Source: Nodosilinea foveolarum
GTDB lineage: Bacteria; Cyanobacteriota; Cyanobacteriia; Phormidesmidales; Phormidesmidaceae
DNA: 45,009 nt
Reading direction: 5' to 3'
Assembly (NCBI GenBank): GCA_003242035.1
Contig: QBMC01000017.1
Span: 1 to 45,009, forward strand
Numbering within the stretch: the first letter of the stretch is position 1; every line of letters starts with the position of its first letter. The translations under genes and the position numbers were made by a program. The notes below the pieces were generated by a model that did no database searches, was not told the origin of the DNA, and saw nothing but the letters and a program-made list of their open reading frames with translations. Below, one piece after another: positions 5,740-45,009 of this stretch.

Positions 5740-7782
5740 ATGAACCGTTCTTCTTCGGCTAATGTTTCAGCGACTGAGGTCGGGCCTTTTTTTGACCTAG
5801 CTTCCGATTTTATGTGTGTCCTGGATGAGAAAGGCGGCTACGTTCAGGTTAATCAGGCTTTTGTTCGAGGACTGGGCTACTCTGTGCAATTGTTGCGCGA
5901 TCGCTCTATACGCTCTTTGGCCTACCCAGACGATAGAGACAGCATACAGGCTCAGCTTGATCGCCTGAACGCTGGAGAGAATACGGTCAGCTTTACGCAT
6001 CGCTACGTTGCTAAAGATGCTCAAGTGCTCTGGCTAGATTGGACGGTTTCACGGATCGAAACGGCCTCAGGTCATCAGCTTTACGGCGTTGCCAAAAATA
6101 TTACGCAGGATCGTTCTCTCCAAAGTCAGTTAGCACAGCAATCCGGGGAGCTATCGGCGGCGGTAGACCAATACACCAATCTGCTTCAGGCCGAGCGTCG
6201 GGCGAGCTTACGGGCATCTACTGCCGAAACGCAAATGAAGCTCTACGCTGACGCGACGCACAACATGCCTGTGGGACTACATATTTGGCAGCTAGAGAAT
6301 TTACAAAGTGCCGATAGTCTGCGCTTGATTGCGGCTAACCCAGCGACTATCGAATTTACCGGTCTAGCGCCCGAAAGCGTTGTGAACAAAACTATTTTGG
6401 AATCCTTCCCGGCGTTAGCTGGAACGGAGATTCTAGAGCAGTATGCGGAAGTGATTCGCACTCAGAAAAAGCGTAATTTTGGAGAAGTTGTTTACGGTGA
6501 CGATCACGTTGAGAAAAGCATCTTTGCCATCAAAGCCTTTCCACTGCCCGATAGCTGCATGGGCGTTGTTTTTGACAACATCACCTTGTACAAAAGGGCA
6601 GAAATTCTGCGTCATGAGCAGGAAGCTCAGCTACGCGTTATGTTCCAGCAGGCGAACGTGGGCATGGCCAGACTCTCTGCTTCTGGTCAGTGGATGCAGG
6701 TAAACCGCTATTTGTGCGATTTGCTAGGTTATCCGGCCGAAACGCTGCTAAAGAAGACGTTTTTTGAAGTCACTCATCGCGATGACCAAGCGGCGGCCCG
6801 TTCGCTGTTTCAGCAGTTGCTGTCGGATAATTCTTTAACAGACGCTCAGACTCCGAACGCCCAGGGCGAGATCGAAAATCGCTACATCACAGCCGAGGGA
6901 GAGACGGTTTGGACGCTAGCGACGCTATCGGCTATTCGTAACCAGCAGGGCGAGCTGCTCTATTTCATTGCGGCGGTGCAAGACATCACTAAGCATAAAG
7001 AGACTATGCTGGCGTTAAAATCGCAAAAAAATAGCCTGATGACGACCAACTTGATGCTGACACATACGATGCGGACGCTAGAGCAGCGGAATGAAGAACT
7101 CGATCAGTTTGCCTATGTGACCTCGCACGACTTGAAAGCGCCGCTGCGAGCGATCGCCAACTTAGCCACCTGGATAGAAGAAGATATCGGTAACCAGCTC
7201 CCGGCTGAAAACGCAGAGCAGTTCGAGCTGTTGAAAAATCGGGTGCATCGGATGGAGGGGCTAATTAATGGCCTGTTGGAATACTCTCGCATTGGCCGAA
7301 CGCATCAGAGCAGTGAGCAAGTGGATGTCGCCGCGCTGCTAGCAGACGTGGTGGACTCCCTGCCGACCGCAGGCTTTACGGTGATCATCGCGCCTGATAT
7401 GCCCGAGTTTCAAGCTAAGCGATCGCCGCTATATCAAGTGTTTTCTAATCTAATTAACAATGCAATTAAGCATCATCATCGCTCAGATGGCACGGTGGAG
7501 ATTGGCGTTGAAGACTTAGGCCGGGTCTATCAGTTTACGGTTAAAGATGACGGGCCTGGGATTGCCGAAGCTTTTCACGAGAAGGTGTTCGCTATTTTTC
7601 AGACACTGCGATCGCGCGATGAGCTAGAGAGCACAGGGATTGGCCTGTCCCTCGTGAAAAAAGCGGTTTTGGCCGAAGGGGGCAACATTGAGATTTTTTC
7701 TAAAGGAGAGCAGGGAGCAGGCACCACTTTTCAATTTACCTGGCCCAAAATACCGAACACAGATGACAAATACACCGCCTAG
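5740..7782 (+). CDS. Three-PAS sensor histidine kinase
   Basis: The 680-residue protein has no transmembrane segment and so is probably cytoplasmic. In order it has PAS 1 (about 14-130), PAS 2 (about 170-285) and PAS 3 (about 296-420, ending in a PAC-like IAAVQDITKHKE). A helical linker leads to a HisKA domain with the phosphoacceptor H463 in SHDLKAPLRAI. A HATPase_c domain follows, with an N-box NLINNAIKHH, a G1 box DDGPGIAE and a G2 box GIGLSLVKK. This dimerisation/ATPase type resembles kinases that signal through Rcp1-like receivers, and such a receiver gene follows 68 bases downstream. PAS domains could bind a small molecule or sense redox, but no chromophore Cys or heme ligand is obvious. 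The ATG at 5740 lacks a clear Shine-Dalgarno, so the exact start is less certain than the rest. Confidence 0.95.
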   Translation: MNRSSSANVSATEVGPFFDLASDFMCVLDEKGGYVQVNQAFVRGLGYSVQLLRDRSIRSLAYPDDRDSIQAQLDRLNAGENTVSFTHRYVAKDAQVLWLDWTVSRIETASGHQLYGVAKNITQDRSLQSQLAQQSGELSAAVDQYTNLLQAERRASLRASTAETQMKLYADATHNMPVGLHIWQLENLQSADSLRLIAANPATIEFTGLAPESVVNKTILESFPALAGTEILEQYAEVIRTQKKRNFGEVVYGDDHVEKSIFAIKAFPLPDSCMGVVFDNITLYKRAEILRHEQEAQLRVMFQQANVGMARLSASGQWMQVNRYLCDLLGYPAETLLKKTFFEVTHRDDQAAARSLFQQLLSDNSLTDAQTPNAQGEIENRYITAEGETVWTLATLSAIRNQQGELLYFIAAVQDITKHKETMLALKSQKNSLMTTNLMLTHTMRTLEQRNEELDQFAYVTSHDLKAPLRAIANLATWIEEDIGNQLPAENAEQFELLKNRVHRMEGLINGLLEYSRIGRTHQSSEQVDVAALLADVVDSLPTAGFTVIIAPDMPEFQAKRSPLYQVFSNLINNAIKHHHRSDGTVEIGVEDLGRVYQFTVKDDGPGIAEAFHEKVFAIFQTLRSRDELESTGIGLSLVKKAVLAEGGNIEIFSKGEQGAGTTFQFTWPKIPNTDDKYTA

Positions 7783-7850
7783 CTCGTCCTAACGCCGTTA
7801 GTTCGTAAAAGATACAGCACACACAAAATAAGGCACACAAAAGAAAAGCG

Positions 7851-8291
7851 ATGACAGTAAAGACCGACATGATAGTCACCAACATCCTGCTGGTCGAAGA
7901 CGACAAAGTGGATGTGATGAACGTTCAGCGTTCGTTTAAGAAGGCCAATATTGCGAATCCTCTGTTTGTGGCTGGCAATGGTTTAGAAGCGCTGGATATT
8001 CTTAGAAACGAGTCTGAAACGATGCAAATGCCCAAATTTAGAAGGCTGGTATTGCTAGACTTGAACATGCCTAAAATGGGTGGCATTGAGTTCTTAAAGG
8101 AGCTGAGAAAAGATCCTACTTTGCGGCGCACCCCGGTAATCGTATTAACCACCTCCGACCAGGAGAGAGATCGCGTAGAAGCGTACGACTTAAACGTAGC
8201 TGGCTACCTGCTGAAGCCCGTTACGTTTGCGAATTTTGCCGATGTTATGACCACGCTTAATCGCTACTGGACGCTCTGTGAAATCCCCTAG
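7851..8291 (+). CDS. Rcp1-like single-domain response regulator
   Basis: This 146-residue protein consists of a receiver domain only, with no output domain. It has the acidic cluster E16/D17/D18, the phosphoacceptor D70 in LLDLNMPKMGG, the switch Thr in VLTTSD and the conserved Lys in LLKPV. The extended loop before D70 (residues about 54-65) is typical of the Rcp1/CheY-like receivers found beside phytochrome-type and PAS kinases in cyanobacteria. It starts 68 bases after the three-PAS kinase stop codon on the same strand, so the pair probably forms an operon and a cognate phosphotransfer partnership. A second in-frame ATG at residue 7 (7869) is an equally possible start. Confidence 0.93.
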   Translation: MTVKTDMIVTNILLVEDDKVDVMNVQRSFKKANIANPLFVAGNGLEALDILRNESETMQMPKFRRLVLLDLNMPKMGGIEFLKELRKDPTLRRTPVIVLTTSDQERDRVEAYDLNVAGYLLKPVTFANFADVMTTLNRYWTLCEIP

Positions 8292-8666
8292 ACGAGCGGC
8301 TTCAGCAAAGGGTCTTAAGCAACCTGCAAAAACACTCATTTACGACCTTTTTTCAACGCTTTTCTAAAGACCTTGCGGGTTGCTGTAAGCAGCAACGCTC
8401 CGCCCTTCTAAATATTCAAAGAGAATGGCTATCTAGCTAATATGTCAATACCAATACCTTCCTATTGACACTGGTCAATCTTCTCGTTATCGGGTTAGCG
8501 TGACCTTACCAGGTAATTAACGCCACGCTCGCCGCAAGCGTACGAAACCTAGGATAAGGCAATCATCACACTTGCCCTCGTACCTTGGCTAACCGGTTTT
8601 GCGATCCAACTTTATGTGCCGTTTTATAGCTGCTGCAACTCCTGATATCGGCTTATTGAAACCGTA
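8292..8666 (+). other. Intergenic region with possible alternative hairpins
   Basis: These 375 bases lie between two same-strand signalling genes, and no gene is supported. The segment AGCAACCTGCAA (8318-8329) can pair, with one G-T wobble, with TTGCGGGTTGCT (8373-8384). The end of that second element can instead pair with AGCAAC (8391-8396) in a short local hairpin. The two structures exclude each other. No T run follows, so this is not a simple terminator. The promoter of the next gene probably lies in the second half. Confidence 0.35.
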
Positions 8667-10010
8667 ATGTCAACTTCTCTCGACGAAGCCTTAAACGTAC
8701 TCATTGTAGACGACGACGAAGTCGATAGGATGGCGCTAAGTAGAGCATTGAAAGCGACCTCTTTGAGTGTAGTCATTACCGAAGCTAGCGATGCTGATGC
8801 TGCCTTAGCTGCGGTGGCCGCAGTAGAACCCGACTGTGTTTTTTTGGACTATCACCTGCCCGGTAGAAATGGGCTGTCGCTGGTGAGGCGAATGCGGCGC
8901 ATGGGCGTTCAGGTGCCGCTAATTGTGCTGACAGGGCAGGGCAATGAGCAAACGGCGGTCGAGCTGATGAAGGCTGGGGCCTCTGACTATTTACCTAAAA
9001 GCAAGCTGTCTACGGAAACCATTGCCCGTCTGGTGCGCAGTGCGATGCGGGTTTATAGAGCGGAGCAGACGATAGAAGAGACCAATCGCAGGCTGCGTGA
9101 AAAGAATCAGCTTTTAGAGCAAAAAAATCAAGAGCTAGAGCGTCAGCGTCGCCAAATCTACAAGCAAAATCTTCAGCTACAAGAAGTTTCTAGGCTCAAA
9201 TCAGAGTTTTTGGCGACGATGTCTCACGAGCTGAGAACGCCGCTCAATGCCATTATCGGCTTCTCTCAAATTCTGATTAGTAAAACTAAAGGCCCGCTCA
9301 CTGATTATCAGCAGGATATGTTGAGCCGGGTGCTTTCAAATGGCAAAAATCTGTTAGAGCTAATCAACGATATTTTAGCGTTCTCTAGAATAGAAGCGGG
9401 TCGCCTAGAGCTAGAACCCGTGCCGTTTGATTTGTCTAACCTGGTTAGGGCTACGGTCGAAGAACTGCGATCGCTAGCTGCTCAAAAGTCGATTGCGCTA
9501 GAGCTAGAGGTGGCGCTAGCCGATCCTACCGTCATCAACGATATCGCTCGGGTCCGCCAAATTGTTGTTAATTTGATATCCAACGCCATCAAGTTCACTT
9601 CACAGGGATCTGTTCGCGTAGTGGTAACCGCCGCTGATTGCGCTAATCCGTCTGGTCAGGACGTGGTTATTTCTGTTTTAGACACCGGCTGCGGTATCAG
9701 TGCGCTCGACCAAGTGTATATATTTGATGCGTTTCATCAATCTGACCAAAAGGTCACGCGCAGACATGCGGGCACGGGCTTGGGTTTGGCCATCACCCAT
9801 TCCCTAGTCAATATGATGCGAGGAGAGATTACGGTAGATAGTAAAGTTGGCGAAGGCAGCCTCTTTCGAGTGGTGTTGCCTAGAGAAGTCAAGGCCGATG
9901 AAAAGAAAGCGCCCAAGAATCTTGCTCAGCAGATCAGCACATCTTCCATTAGTAGAGTCAGCTCGGCTATACGACAACAGTCCCCATCAAAAAGCGTTAG
10001 AGAGAATTAG
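8667..10010 (+). CDS. Histidine kinase with N-terminal receiver domain
   Basis: This 447-residue cytoplasmic protein begins with a receiver domain (about 9-128; acidic D15-D17, phosphoacceptor D61 in FLDYHLPGRNG, switch Thr in VLTGQG, conserved Lys in LPKSKL). A coiled-coil helix rich in Gln, Glu, Lys and Arg (about 140-178) follows. The HisKA domain has phosphoacceptor H187 in MSHELRTPLNAI, and the HATPase_c domain has NLISNAIKF, DTGCGI and GTGLGLAI. This order, receiver first and kinase second, is common in cyanobacteria and lets an upstream kinase control the kinase through phosphorylation of D61. The C-terminal ~40 residues are Ser/Lys-rich and probably disordered. It lies in a row of signalling genes on the plus strand, upstream of a second protein of the same design. 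No membrane segment or sensor domain is present. Confidence 0.95.
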   Translation: MSTSLDEALNVLIVDDDEVDRMALSRALKATSLSVVITEASDADAALAAVAAVEPDCVFLDYHLPGRNGLSLVRRMRRMGVQVPLIVLTGQGNEQTAVELMKAGASDYLPKSKLSTETIARLVRSAMRVYRAEQTIEETNRRLREKNQLLEQKNQELERQRRQIYKQNLQLQEVSRLKSEFLATMSHELRTPLNAIIGFSQILISKTKGPLTDYQQDMLSRVLSNGKNLLELINDILAFSRIEAGRLELEPVPFDLSNLVRATVEELRSLAAQKSIALELEVALADPTVINDIARVRQIVVNLISNAIKFTSQGSVRVVVTAADCANPSGQDVVISVLDTGCGISALDQVYIFDAFHQSDQKVTRRHAGTGLGLAITHSLVNMMRGEITVDSKVGEGSLFRVVLPREVKADEKKAPKNLAQQISTSSISRVSSAIRQQSPSKSVREN

Positions 10011-10137
10011 TCGGGGTGGTTACAAATACAGCGATCCTATGCCCTTGGTTATAAACAGAGCAGAGGCTTGTGATGTTACGCTCTATTCATAAATTTCAGT
10101 TCTTAAAGTCCAAACTTTTATAAGTTTTAGTAAGTCT

Positions 10138-11328
10138 GTGAGTTTCCAATCTGCCAGGATATTAGCTGTTGACGACATTCCCGATAATCTTTTCATTCTA
10201 GACTCCATTCTGGGCGACGTAGATGGCTATTTTCTTGATTGCGTAAGCGATGGTGAGGCTGCACTGTCTTATCTAGACGACAACAAACCCGATCTTATTT
10301 TGCTAGATGTGATGATGCCAGGACTCGATGGCTACGAAGTCACCCGGCGCATTCGACAAATTAAGGCAGCTCCCTACATTCCTATTTTGCTCGTGACGGC
10401 TCATGATCAGTCTAGTCTGGCAGAAGGCTTGGATTCAGGGGCGGATGACTTTATTCGCAAGCCGTTCGATATTGACGAGCTGATGGCTCGGGTGCGATCG
10501 CTCCTACGGCTCAAGCGTAGCCTAGATGAGCAGCAGGCCATGATTCGCCAGCGCGATGATTTTGTGGCCCGACTCACGCACGATCTGCGAACACCGCTAG
10601 TTGCGGCTAACAGAATGCTGAGTCTATGCTTGCAAGGCGTGTTTGGCGATCCGCCCGATGACATGGCAGAAGCGATTGAAAACGTAGTGACCAACAACGA
10701 AAATCTGTTGCAAATGACCAATACGCTGCTGCAAGTGTATCGTCATGAGGCTGGGCAAAAAAAGCTGGTGCGATCGCCCCTTTCCATTTACTCGTTAGCC
10801 AAAGAAGTCGTGCAAGAGCTAAAGCCACTGGCCGAAGAAAAAGCCCTGGCCCTAAAGCTGGTTGCCCAGCCGAGCGATGTCCCCGAAACGTCCACCGCTA
10901 AGACAGCAGCCGTTACTCACAGCGACGACGACACGAAAGAGGCTGCAAAGAAGATGGAACAGTCTTATTGTACAGAGGGCGATCGCATTGAGCTGAGAAG
11001 ACTGCTCACCAACCTGCTGGGTAATGCCATCAAGTTTACCGACTCGGGCAGCATTTCGGTTCTACTCTCGGTGAGTCAATCACCCCCTACCCAAATTCCA
11101 TCAGCTCAAGTGATCGAAGTGGCCATTCAAGACACTGGAGCTGGCATTGAACCAGAAGCCCGTGACAAAATATTTGAATGGTTTTATCAGGGCGACCATA
11201 TGCGAGCAGGCAGCGGCTTAGGGCTACACCTATCCAAACGAATTGCCGAAATGCACCAGGGCACCCTCACCCTAGAGTCGGAAGTGGGCCAGGGAAGCAC
11301 CTTTACGCTGTTTTTGCCTAAGCTGTAG
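10138..11328 (+). CDS. Second receiver-histidine kinase hybrid
   Basis: The protein has 396 residues and starts with GTG. It has a receiver domain (about 6-123; D12/D13, phosphoacceptor D57 in LLDVMMPGLDG, conserved Lys in IRKPF), a HisKA domain with H148 in LTHDLRTPLVAA, and a HATPase_c domain with an N-box NLLGNAIKF, DTGAGI and GSGLGLHL. Between the HisKA helices and the N-box there is an extra, poorly conserved insert of about 30 residues rich in Ala, Asp and Lys, which is unusual. It lies 127 bases after the first receiver-kinase hybrid on the same strand. Such tandem hybrids could form a multi-step phosphorelay, but the sequence does not show the order of transfer. The domain order resembles kinases involved in cyanobacterial stress responses; no specific ortholog is claimed. 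Confidence 0.95.
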   Translation: MSFQSARILAVDDIPDNLFILDSILGDVDGYFLDCVSDGEAALSYLDDNKPDLILLDVMMPGLDGYEVTRRIRQIKAAPYIPILLVTAHDQSSLAEGLDSGADDFIRKPFDIDELMARVRSLLRLKRSLDEQQAMIRQRDDFVARLTHDLRTPLVAANRMLSLCLQGVFGDPPDDMAEAIENVVTNNENLLQMTNTLLQVYRHEAGQKKLVRSPLSIYSLAKEVVQELKPLAEEKALALKLVAQPSDVPETSTAKTAAVTHSDDDTKEAAKKMEQSYCTEGDRIELRRLLTNLLGNAIKFTDSGSISVLLSVSQSPPTQIPSAQVIEVAIQDTGAGIEPEARDKIFEWFYQGDHMRAGSGLGLHLSKRIAEMHQGTLTLESEVGQGSTFTLFLPKL

Positions 11329-41877: not shown

Positions 41878-42366
41878 CTAGGGGAGCTTTTTTCTGCTCA
41901 CCAGAGCGGAGGTGATGAGAGCTGCTAACCCGCCTACGGCTATGCTTACGAGCAAAATTAAAGCGGCACTGAGCCAAAGATTACTTACCGATGGCGGTTG
42001 GTTCTTAGGGATAGGTCGCCAGACTTGAACAATCTGAGCGGCTTGATTGGATAGGCTAGAAGCGGCTAGGGAGGCGACGCTGATGCCTACGCCTGCGATC
42101 GCCACGGTTTGATTCAGTACGCGCTCGTTTTGCGTCCGTTCGATATCGGTGATCCCTTGAACGGTTTGGATAAAGTTGCCTAAGGGTTTGAGCGCACTGT
42201 CGAAGGCGGCGGTGTCGGCTTGGATTTGCCGGAGATATTTTTCTTGGGTGAGGGTGGCGAAGTTGTTGAGGAAGTCGAGATCGGCTTGTTCGTCGGTGGT
42301 TTTTATGCGGGTGAGGGTGAGGCGATCGCAGAGGCTTATACGCCTACATAGGTGAAGGCAGCCCAA
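41878..42366 (-). pseudogene. Truncated C-terminal remnant of a CorA-like/cyanobacterial membrane protein
   Basis: The frame encodes 162 residues from a TTG that lies inside the CHAT gene, 31 bases before its stop codon. No ATG exists before the first conserved part, and no Shine-Dalgarno is seen. Residues about 28-105 (DFLNNFATLTQEKYLRQIQ..., IERTQNERVLNQTVAIAGVG) match, from memory, the C-terminal stalk and first membrane segment of a family of longer (400+ residue) cyanobacterial membrane proteins. A further helix (LWLSAALILLVSIAVGG) and a charged tail follow. The N-terminal sensor or domain part is missing. It could alternatively be a small real gene translated by coupling to the upstream CHAT gene. 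I favour a remnant. Confidence 0.55.
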
Positions 42367-44969
42367 TAGAAAGGATGTGCGAAAGGGTATCGGTTGGGCG
42401 ATCGCGCTAGTTTTTGAGCGATGTCAGGATGTGAGTCCTTAAAATAAGAGACTAGGTTTGGCTTATCGCTATCTCGCAACCAAATCTGGGCTTGGCGAAG
42501 GGCTTCGGGTGGTTCGAGGTTTTCGGTGCGCCACAGATCGTAAAAGCGGCTAAGCAGAATCATGGTGCTGCGGTCGTCTACTGACCAGAGGGAAGACACG
42601 ACGCCCGCTGCGCCTGCTTGTAGTAGTCCAGTCGGTAGGCTAATCACTTCGTCCGGAAGTTTGGTGCCAGGAATACCAGTTTCGCAGGCGGAGAGGATAG
42701 CCAAACGCAGGTTCTGAAGCTTGAGATCGAGTAGGTCTCGTAAGCTGAGAATTTCGTTGTGAGCCATTAACAGTCCGCTATTGAGAGGCGTATCAAAATC
42801 TGCGGAACCGTGGCAGGAAAAATGAGCAACGGTTTTTAGGGGTAACTGTTCTAGAACAGCGGTTCGTGTAGCGTTTTCCTGCTGAAGAATTTTCCAGTTT
42901 CCTTTGCCAAATGTAGAAATTGCTTTGGCGGCTTCAGCACTAGAGCTGGGTAAGTTACCTGCGTTAACAGGCTGAGGTTCATTAATTGCTAGCAGGCTGG
43001 TGGCTGATATCTTGTTAGCTACGATACGGGCTGCGTTTAGAGAAAGGGCATTGGGGGCGTAGGTGAATTGGATGTCGTCACAGGCGTAGCAGCGACCGTT
43101 GGGTTTGGTGGTGTCTGGTTTCCAAGCAGCATGGAGCGGAAGGTAGCTGAGGTAGCCAGTGGAGATAAGGATGGCTTTGAATAGGTTGTTCTGTTGGAGA
43201 TGGCTAATAAGTGGGGCCATTATCCTATCCCAGAGCTGATGAGTGACATCATCAATGGCGTCAAACCAAGCTTGACGGTCTGTTGGGGATTCTCTGTATG
43301 CTTTGAACCAATCGTCGTTGAGAAGGTCAAGAAGTTGAGGTTCTGTTAAATCATTGAGCCAGAGTTCGCTGATGCCTGCGGTGGTGAGGATGAGGGCGAG
43401 GCTACCGTTGGGGATGGAGAGGAGATAAACAAGGGGATGATCGGGTTGGACGGTTGCGGCTACATCTTCAAAAGTGGGGAGCGATAGGAAATTCTCATAC
43501 TCAGGGATTTGGCGGATTTCGGTGAGGCAATCTTTTAGAGACTGCCTAGCCTGAGCAGCTTGCTGACGAAAGTCTTCCTCGCTGTACGCGGGTGATTGGC
43601 TATCAGTTGTGATGCGGCGTTCGGTCGATTCAAGCTGGTTGATGGCGTTGGCTGCTGTTTGGTAGCGCTCTGCAAGGTCAGGGTTGATTTGGCGAATGGT
43701 TTCTAGGTCGGTTCGGTCGCGCTGTAGGGTTTCGCTGAGGCCGCGTGCTCGGCCTTGTTCTAGGGTTGCGATCGCGGCTGTGAGGTTGCCGACTTTAGCG
43801 TAGGCGTAGGCAGCACGACGGTAGAGATCATGAGTTTCAGAAAGCTCGACCTCTTGACTGCTTTTGAAAAGCGCAGCCTGATAAAGAATTTCGGAGGCGA
43901 TTAGCGTTCTTTCGTATGTTTCTTGAGCTTTAAACCATCGACTTGTATCAGCGTAAACGATGGCTAAAATGCGAGCGGTACGGCGACAGTCGCTAGGGTG
44001 ATCCTCTGGAGTCAAGATCTCTAATGATTGAGAATAAATACTAATTGCGGTTTCAACATTCTCAAAGGGGTTACCCTGAATGCGCTCCAGGTAAGCAAAT
44101 GCTAAATTACTCATCGAGTTTGCCCACTCAACGGGCATCGCCTGACGTGTTCTGACTTTCAATAATTGCTCGAAAGTCTCGATTGCAGCTTCGATATTCT
44201 CTGCTTTGTCTCCGTGGACACGATTAGAATAAGCGACTGCTAAACTATTCATTGACTTTGCCCAATCGAAGGGCATAGCCTGGTGCGTCCTGACTTCCAT
44301 CGACTGCTTGTAGGCATCAATTGCAGCTTCGATATTCTCTGCTTTGTCTTCACGAATACGTCGCTGATAGGCACCCGCTAGATTATTCATCGAGTTCGCC
44401 CATTGAACAGGCATGGTGTCACGCGTTCTAACTTCCATTGACTGCTTATGAGCGGAGATAGCGTATTCAATATTTTCAGCTTTGTCCCCACGAAGGCTCT
44501 CAATATAAGCATTTGCCAAATTATTTGTGGACTGTGCCCAATCTAACGGCGTAGATGTTTTCGTCAGTATTTCTAAAGACTGCTTGATGGCATGAATCGC
44601 CCTTTCGACGTTCTCAGTACGATCGCCTCGAAGTCTGTGCTGGTAAGCATTTGCTAGATTACTCATCGATCTAGCCCAATCAGTAGGCATAGTCTCTTTT
44701 GACCTTATTTCCAGAGACTGCTCATAAGCATCAATAGCCTTTTCAATATTGTCGGCACGGTTCCCTTTTATACGAGCAGAATAAGCACTGGCTATACCAT
44801 CCATCGAAATAGACCACTCCACGGGCATAGTCTCAATTGTCCGTACCTGCAAGGACTGCCTATAGGCATGAATAGCCTCCTCAATATTCTCGGCAAGATT
44901 TCCCTCCATACACTGAGTCAAGCTATTGCCTAGATCCAGTTGTAACTCCGCCCACTGAAGGGGTGACAC
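42336..44969 (-). CDS. TPR-CHAT protein, caspase-like (HetF-associated with TPRs)
   Basis: The frame encodes 877 residues from a GTG. Seven 46-residue TPR-like units of the form MPxxWAxSMNNLAxAYxxR lie at 2-323. A helical linker of about 250 residues leads to a CHAT domain (about 570-877). The catalytic dyad typical of CHAT/caspase-like peptidases is intact: H720 in HFSCHG and C762 in SACETG. CHAT proteases act in signalling and, in characterised cases, in defence-linked proteolysis (for example TPR-CHAT with type III-E CRISPR, and the gasdermin-activating proteases). Neither a CRISPR system nor a gasdermin is visible here. An in-frame TAG five codons upstream of the GTG limits the N-terminus, which otherwise looks abrupt; the gene may be N-terminally truncated, or its 5' part may lie in another frame beyond the window edge. 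Confidence 0.88.
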   Translation of the reverse strand: MSPLQWAELQLDLGNSLTQCMEGNLAENIEEAIHAYRQSLQVRTIETMPVEWSISMDGIASAYSARIKGNRADNIEKAIDAYEQSLEIRSKETMPTDWARSMSNLANAYQHRLRGDRTENVERAIHAIKQSLEILTKTSTPLDWAQSTNNLANAYIESLRGDKAENIEYAISAHKQSMEVRTRDTMPVQWANSMNNLAGAYQRRIREDKAENIEAAIDAYKQSMEVRTHQAMPFDWAKSMNSLAVAYSNRVHGDKAENIEAAIETFEQLLKVRTRQAMPVEWANSMSNLAFAYLERIQGNPFENVETAISIYSQSLEILTPEDHPSDCRRTARILAIVYADTSRWFKAQETYERTLIASEILYQAALFKSSQEVELSETHDLYRRAAYAYAKVGNLTAAIATLEQGRARGLSETLQRDRTDLETIRQINPDLAERYQTAANAINQLESTERRITTDSQSPAYSEEDFRQQAAQARQSLKDCLTEIRQIPEYENFLSLPTFEDVAATVQPDHPLVYLLSIPNGSLALILTTAGISELWLNDLTEPQLLDLLNDDWFKAYRESPTDRQAWFDAIDDVTHQLWDRIMAPLISHLQQNNLFKAILISTGYLSYLPLHAAWKPDTTKPNGRCYACDDIQFTYAPNALSLNAARIVANKISATSLLAINEPQPVNAGNLPSSSAEAAKAISTFGKGNWKILQQENATRTAVLEQLPLKTVAHFSCHGSADFDTPLNSGLLMAHNEILSLRDLLDLKLQNLRLAILSACETGIPGTKLPDEVISLPTGLLQAGAAGVVSSLWSVDDRSTMILLSRFYDLWRTENLEPPEALRQAQIWLRDSDKPNLVSYFKDSHPDIAQKLARSPNRYPFAHPFYWAAFTYVGV
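44003..44968 (-). repeat. Seven tandem ~138-bp coding repeats (TPR units)
   Basis: The TPR units of the CHAT protein have a strict period of 46 codons. Adjacent copies share long identical DNA stretches (for example the segment containing TCGATATTCTCTGCTTTGTC in units 4 and 5), which indicates recent duplication or gene conversion between units. Confidence 0.75.
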
Positions 44970-45009
44970 AACGCTCGAAGGCTATGTGGCATATAGGTTT
45001 TGCCTTCTG

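Follow-up and report, generated by a model that had tools for sequence, protein, structure and literature searches.

The window, by which we mean contig C88 in full (45009 bp), from a 4.75 Mb, 299-contig draft genome (G000), contains a locus that is very probably a decayed, chimeric remnant of two different CHAT-protease cassettes. Its TPR-CHAT gene is split by an insertion sequence (IS), both pieces of the locus can be identified, and the cassettes from which they come are conserved in other genomes. We propose that one of these, termed cassette B, would span contigs C176 and C88, with its TPR-CHAT gene interrupted by the IS, and that a rearrangement at the CHAT stop codon would have joined to it the last third of a membrane-protein gene (MP-A) of the cassette A type. 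Most likely, the window locus does not work. A decayed locus had been one of two alternatives in the preliminary description of this DNA, and it is the one borne out by an IS-split CHAT gene lying next to an MP-A tail from another cassette. The coordinates are collected in Table 1.

Table 1. Positions of the features of the window and of the linked contig C176.
Feature	Position	Strand	Remarks
Ankyrin/TPR gene, 1259 aa	38034..41813	+	Convergent, bounds the locus; orthologue in G004
162-codon frame, TTG to TAG	41878..42366	-	Begins in CHAT coding DNA, read at -1
MP-A remnant, C-terminal third	41881..42318	-	Family profile positions 322-459 of 465
HIP1-type octamer GCGATCGC	42322..42329		Between CHAT stop codon and MP-A homology
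3' part of TPR-CHAT gene	42336..44954	-	PF12770 match, dyad, 65% identity to L153 TPR-CHAT (1134 aa)
9-bp target-site duplication	44946..44954		CTCCGCCCA; TGGGCGGAG on gene strand; also on C176 before the other IS end
IS end inside TPR-CHAT gene	44955..45009		18-bp terminal inverted repeat at 44955-44972
Small-B gene	C176 6227-6658		Joined to window through IS
MP-B gene	C176 6662-7582		Joined to window through IS

The split TPR-CHAT gene and cassette B

The open frame of the TPR-CHAT gene runs on the minus strand from 42336 to 44969 (877 codons, stop codon at 42336-42338) and is uninterrupted throughout its length. Its product matched the CHAT domain profile PF12770 with 190 bits, against a curated cut-off of 24, and contained seven TPR-like units of ~46 residues (six by motif plus the first one). 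The positions of the catalytic dyad are occupied by His720 in an HG motif and Cys762 in an SAC motif (numbering of the 877-aa frame). In the intact dyad and the seven TPR units the preliminary description was accurate, as it was in the extents of the 877-codon and 162-codon frames and their overlap by 31 bases. Elsewhere in G000 (L152; C119, 497-6275), a 446-aa CHAT-like protein adjoins what appear, by eye only, to be type III-B CRISPR (Cmr) genes.

The 877-codon frame had been taken for a whole gene, which did not stand. Its GTG "start" (44967-44969) sits within the terminal repeat of the IS and the N-terminal ~130 residues are encoded on C176; the frame is therefore not a complete gene. The TPR-CHAT gene is cut in its first TPR unit by a multicopy IS, and the other part lies on C176, where positions 7628-8020 encode the first ~130 codons and are followed by the 18-bp terminal inverted repeat, CTGAAGGGGTGACACAAC, at TGGGCGGAG. 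At the end of C88 this 18-bp repeat recurs in inverted orientation, next to the 9 bp that also flank it on C176. The two flanks were not merged; instead, each gene piece was compared on its own with the 1134-aa homologue (L153). The C176 piece covered residues 1-133 and the window piece extended from about residue 128, so that the pieces overlapped on the homologue only briefly, at the duplicated site. This N-terminal part of ~130 residues is conserved in several relatives.

The same repeat was found in 45 copies in G000 (44 exact and one with a mismatch), nearly all of them within ~60 bp of contig ends; the copy in the window, at 44955, is the only one there. By their 9-bp flanks, 14 pairs of contig ends could be matched, C88-C176 among them, and each of the 14 pairs unites the two different ends of the element. 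The assembly was broken by this multicopy IS, and these end pairs can be linked through the target duplications. A related element, present as a whole on C232, encodes a DDE_Tnp_1 transposase. We take C176 and C88 to be joined through the IS, a join that rests on the IS ends and homology rather than on spanning reads.

On C176 the order of genes is small-B, MP-B, and then the start of TPR-CHAT. We define cassette B as a TPR-CHAT gene with small-B (~128 aa), which carries a C-terminal CP..DY.W...P.CP.H motif, and MP-B (~305-306 aa), which has two or three predicted transmembrane (TM) segments; loci L158, L162, L159, and L168 are examples. The adjacent small-B and MP-B genes of C176, both intact, are the only ones in G000. 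The gene order of C176 recurs in G307 (L154), where a 127-aa ORF, not flagged by the small-B profile, occupies the small-B position and is followed by MP-B and TPR-CHAT. In the survey sample of 388 cyanobacterial genomes, MP-B was present in 53, about 20 of which had only broken or partial copies, some owing to contig ends.

The lineage of the window CHAT was examined in a tree of CHAT sequences. It grouped with 14 others, which were of the cassette-B or orphan type with none of cassette A (nodes 0.94 and 0.66), and most of this clade carries cassette B. CHAT-region identity was 77% to L113/L153 and 67% to L114/L154. The nearest relatives of the window CHAT were 69, 57, and 55% identical over the matched part, and their genomes, for those in the MP-A sample, had no detected MP-A. 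Because the window CHAT comes from the cassette-B clade, it is not the native partner of MP-A. A simple internal deletion of cassette A was considered as the origin of the window locus and dropped, the CHAT belonging to the B clade. Set against cassette B, the window has a CHAT of the B clade, by tree and by CHAT-region identity, and, via the IS, the adjacent small-B and MP-B on C176; its TPR-CHAT gene is not uninterrupted, with the IS in the first TPR unit.

The insertion might instead be harmless or even regulatory, such that the 877-codon CHAT begun in the IS end, perhaps driven by an outward IS promoter, still works with the MP-B on C176 and the MP-A tail is irrelevant. That the shortened frame retains all of the CHAT domain and seven TPR units, and that small-B and MP-B are intact, would be in line with this. 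However, the conserved N-terminal part of the protein is lost, and in other genomes broken MP-B copies are frequent. We judge continued function of this kind improbable, and the decay reading is preferred.

The MP-A remnant and its junction with CHAT

The 162-codon frame encodes the tail of a protein from an unnamed membrane-protein family, 440-580 aa at full length, which we name MP-A. Full-length members consist of an N-terminal domain, a coiled coil, and a C-terminal hydrophobic hairpin, as far as a low-confidence structure model tells, and conservation is highest in the stalk and hairpin. The remnant contains the second half or last helix of the coiled coil and the TM hairpin, with two hydrophobic segments. 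The earlier proposal that this frame is the stalk and membrane-hairpin tail of a larger cyanobacterial membrane protein is supported by full-length homologues of 470-555 aa in other cyanobacteria. The closest of them, a 494-aa protein from a Pseudanabaenales MAG (L003, the same as L142), shared 52% identity over 132 aa.

MP-A matches were present in 39 of the 388 sampled genomes. G000 gave a single one, the window fragment, and the rest of the MP-A gene is absent from the genome. A profile search of genome contigs returned just the contig already known, and searches of viral contigs found none. Pfam and NCBIfam hold no model for MP-A, MP-B, or the small partner proteins, and the 162-aa frame itself had no Pfam, NCBIfam, or PADLOC match. 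PDB searches gave weak, coiled-coil-like matches only for MP-A and nothing useful for MP-B; an AlphaFold model of MP-A, built from two sequences, reached a pLDDT of 46. A CorA-type channel was rejected as an identity for MP-A (hhalign probability 1%, no Pfam match). Profile comparison gave no match between MP-A and MP-B, or between small-A and small-B.

To define the usual context of MP-A, the surroundings of about 60 full-length genes were gathered and counts were made on the 55 loci for which 1.5 kb or more of upstream sequence was available, the neighbourhoods coming from a simple ORF caller by which small genes may be missed or wrongly started. Of these 55, 45 had a same-strand TPR-CHAT gene upstream at a distance of at most 1.6 kb, and 47 had a small ORF abutting MP-A, often with a 4-bp overlap. 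Since G000 has seven CHAT-domain matches in its 4.75 Mb, this adjacency is far above chance. Cassette A, as defined here, consists of TPR-CHAT, small-A (~125 aa), and MP-A, with the small gene usually between the other two; an intact example is found in Planktothrix agardhii (NZ_LR882948.1, 33458-38625). The window differs from it in that only the C-terminal third of the MP-A profile is covered, in that no small gene separates the overlapping CHAT and MP-A frames, and in that its CHAT is about 27-38% identical to the CHATs of cassette A.

The MP-A homology starts just past the CHAT stop codon, at the GCGATCGC site, and this octamer is a possible recombination point. The 162-codon frame lies in the -1 frame relative to CHAT. 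It contains no ATG, and ahead of the homologous part a TTG within the CHAT gene is the sole start-like codon. Its ~16 initial residues come from CHAT DNA in a different frame or lie beyond the profile match. The overlap of 31 bases arose as a side effect of the joining. Over all of its homologous part the frame is uninterrupted. That both frames are still open counts against decay, and therefore the decay is young or some selection remains. So does the position of the breakpoint, whose coincidence with the CHAT stop codon would be slightly unexpected if chance had placed it.

Eight further C-terminal-only MP-A remnants were found in other genomes (L046, L048, L049, L051, L052, L053, and others), and several solitary C-terminal frames span 147-200 codons. 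None of the eight had a CHAT within 3 kb; the remnant in G365 is 3.3 kb from one that is part of an intact cassette-A copy. Because no remnant adjoins a CHAT, the short form is, as far as the sample shows, a decay product, and the suggestion that it might recur next to CHAT genes fails in the genomes sampled. N-terminal-only remnants were not seen among the MP-A matches, which may in part be a detection bias, the C-terminal part being the best conserved. At L050 (G365, 7573-10970), an intact cassette A is followed downstream by an MP-A fragment. The frame of this fragment opens with a stretch that is also present in the frame of the small gene (LLQAEPEKLHSQPESGNEL), which suggests a partial tandem duplication or a shared repeat.

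The preliminary description had also considered an active protease with a minimal membrane effector, that is, a CHAT piece still made and acting with the short stalk-plus-hairpin protein. The two open frames, the strong conservation of stalk and hairpin within MP-A, and the existence of the other solitary frames would favour such a pair. It is nevertheless highly unlikely, as the IS splits the CHAT gene and supplies its start codon, an ATG is missing from the 162-aa frame, the two partners derive from different cassettes, the CHAT being of the MP-B-paired clade, and the short form does not recur beside CHAT. An assembly artefact that wrongly joined the CHAT end to the MP-A tail might be suspected in a 299-contig draft with a multicopy IS. 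We give it very little credence: the junction is 2.6 kb from the contig end, the window has no copy of the IS repeat besides that at 44955, and the 8-bp octamer at the junction is too short to mislead an assembler. Hardly credible at all is a translational fusion in which a -1 shift at C CCT TTC, close to the end of CHAT, would attach the protease to stalk and hairpin. The MP-A frame, at -1 relative to CHAT, does stay open as far upstream as 42426, and the CCCTTTC heptamer is in register within that open stretch. The heptamer is, however, a weak one, of a kind occasionally expected by chance, and it sits in sequence that is normal for CHAT; the junction, moreover, is a rearrangement between unrelated cassettes.

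The bounding ankyrin/TPR gene has an orthologue with 79% protein identity in the genus relative G004, and was not found at the threshold used in four of six genus relatives. A full-length membrane protein at this site in close relatives had been named earlier as a sign of simple gene decay; the comparison extends to G004 only, in which neither CHAT nor MP-A occurs in the 450 bp available beyond the ankyrin/TPR orthologue. Two partial paralogues of the ankyrin/TPR gene are present elsewhere in G000 (C224 and C74). C176 also has a type I restriction specificity-like gene and encodes PIN-domain proteins and an IS66 transposase. In G003, XisH, XisI, and a zeta-toxin-like gene come after the nearest CHAT. 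These surroundings fit a variable, defence-like region, as an association only.

Intact cassettes and known systems

The window locus itself is a case of ordinary gene decay, and tracing it led to two recurrent three-gene cassettes that pair a TPR-CHAT protease with a membrane protein and a small protein. Of the sampled cyanobacterial genomes, about a tenth have MP-A and about a seventh have MP-B. A literature search, covering open papers only, found no description of cassettes A and B. The earlier idea of a CHAT protease with a membrane partner does not apply to the window pair. It holds for the gene content of the intact cassettes, a TPR-CHAT gene preceding MP-A at 45 of 55 full-length loci, and any joint function there is inferred.

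For the intact cassettes we tentatively suggest, by analogy, a membrane effector under the control of CHAT. The TPR array would sense an infection or stress cue, upon which the CHAT protease would be switched on and would cleave or release its membrane partner, with the small protein as an adaptor or inhibitor. Once freed, this partner would exert its effect at the membrane and probably serve as an effector of defence that damages the cell. More broadly, cassettes A and B could be two unnamed cyanobacterial systems that place a dedicated membrane protein under the control of a sensory TPR-CHAT protease, via a small linker protein, following the logic of caspase and membrane effector with parts unrelated to gasdermins. 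The window would be one broken example, and the frequent breakage of the membrane partner would be as expected of a costly effector. This wider picture is a possibility worth pursuing rather than a probable conclusion. If it is true that the protease activates the membrane partner, the cassettes would represent a further independent form of bacterial membrane attack under caspase control. Each cassette is a small unit that lends itself to testing.

A different role for the membrane protein competes with this mechanism of the intact cassettes, and not with the decay of the window locus. It would be a sensor or anchor that holds and activates CHAT, which then cleaves another target. The layout of MP-A, with a large N-terminal part, a coiled coil, and a short C-terminal hairpin in the low-confidence model, would suit such a role, as would the proposal that the membrane component of EACC1 is a sensor for the caspase (PMC7159879). 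Caspase-like proteases near bacterial gasdermins, however, cut their neighbour (PMC9612521). We consider a sensor or anchor somewhat unlikely, and the controlled effector remains our working model.

Among known systems, the CHAT protease of Craspase cuts a partner encoded in its own locus (PMC10028731). Csx29, the TPR-CHAT protein of this type III-E CRISPR system, resembles the window CHAT in having TPR repeats followed by the CHAT protease; it is the best solved-structure match, and the best NCBIfam match is NF041237 with 52 bits. This score, however, is below the cut-off of 300, no Cas7-11, Csx30, or Csx31 was seen beside the window CHAT, and the partners here are membrane proteins. No cas genes were recognised by eye among the window frames, and the window proteins had no meaningful PADLOC match.

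Bacterial gasdermins, which are cut by neighbouring caspase-like proteases, likewise place a caspase-like or CHAT protease gene beside a membrane-acting partner (PMC9612521). Unlike gasdermins, MP-A and MP-B have predicted TM segments and no Pfam gasdermin match, and MP-A has a coiled coil and C-terminal hairpin, in a model too poor for a comparison of fold. The EACC1 and EACC2 systems of multicellular bacteria also set a caspase-superfamily protein next to a conserved partner, which in EACC1 is membrane linked (PMC7159879, PMC8195603). EACC1 is, however, a short protein with a single TM segment whose caspase is N-terminal to variable C-terminal domains, and the cassettes described here are not so organised. 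HetF of Anabaena is likewise a cyanobacterial CHAT protein with TPR and TM (PMC8406250), but it is one polypeptide with its own TM segment, whereas cassettes A and B encode the CHAT protein and the membrane proteins as distinct polypeptides.
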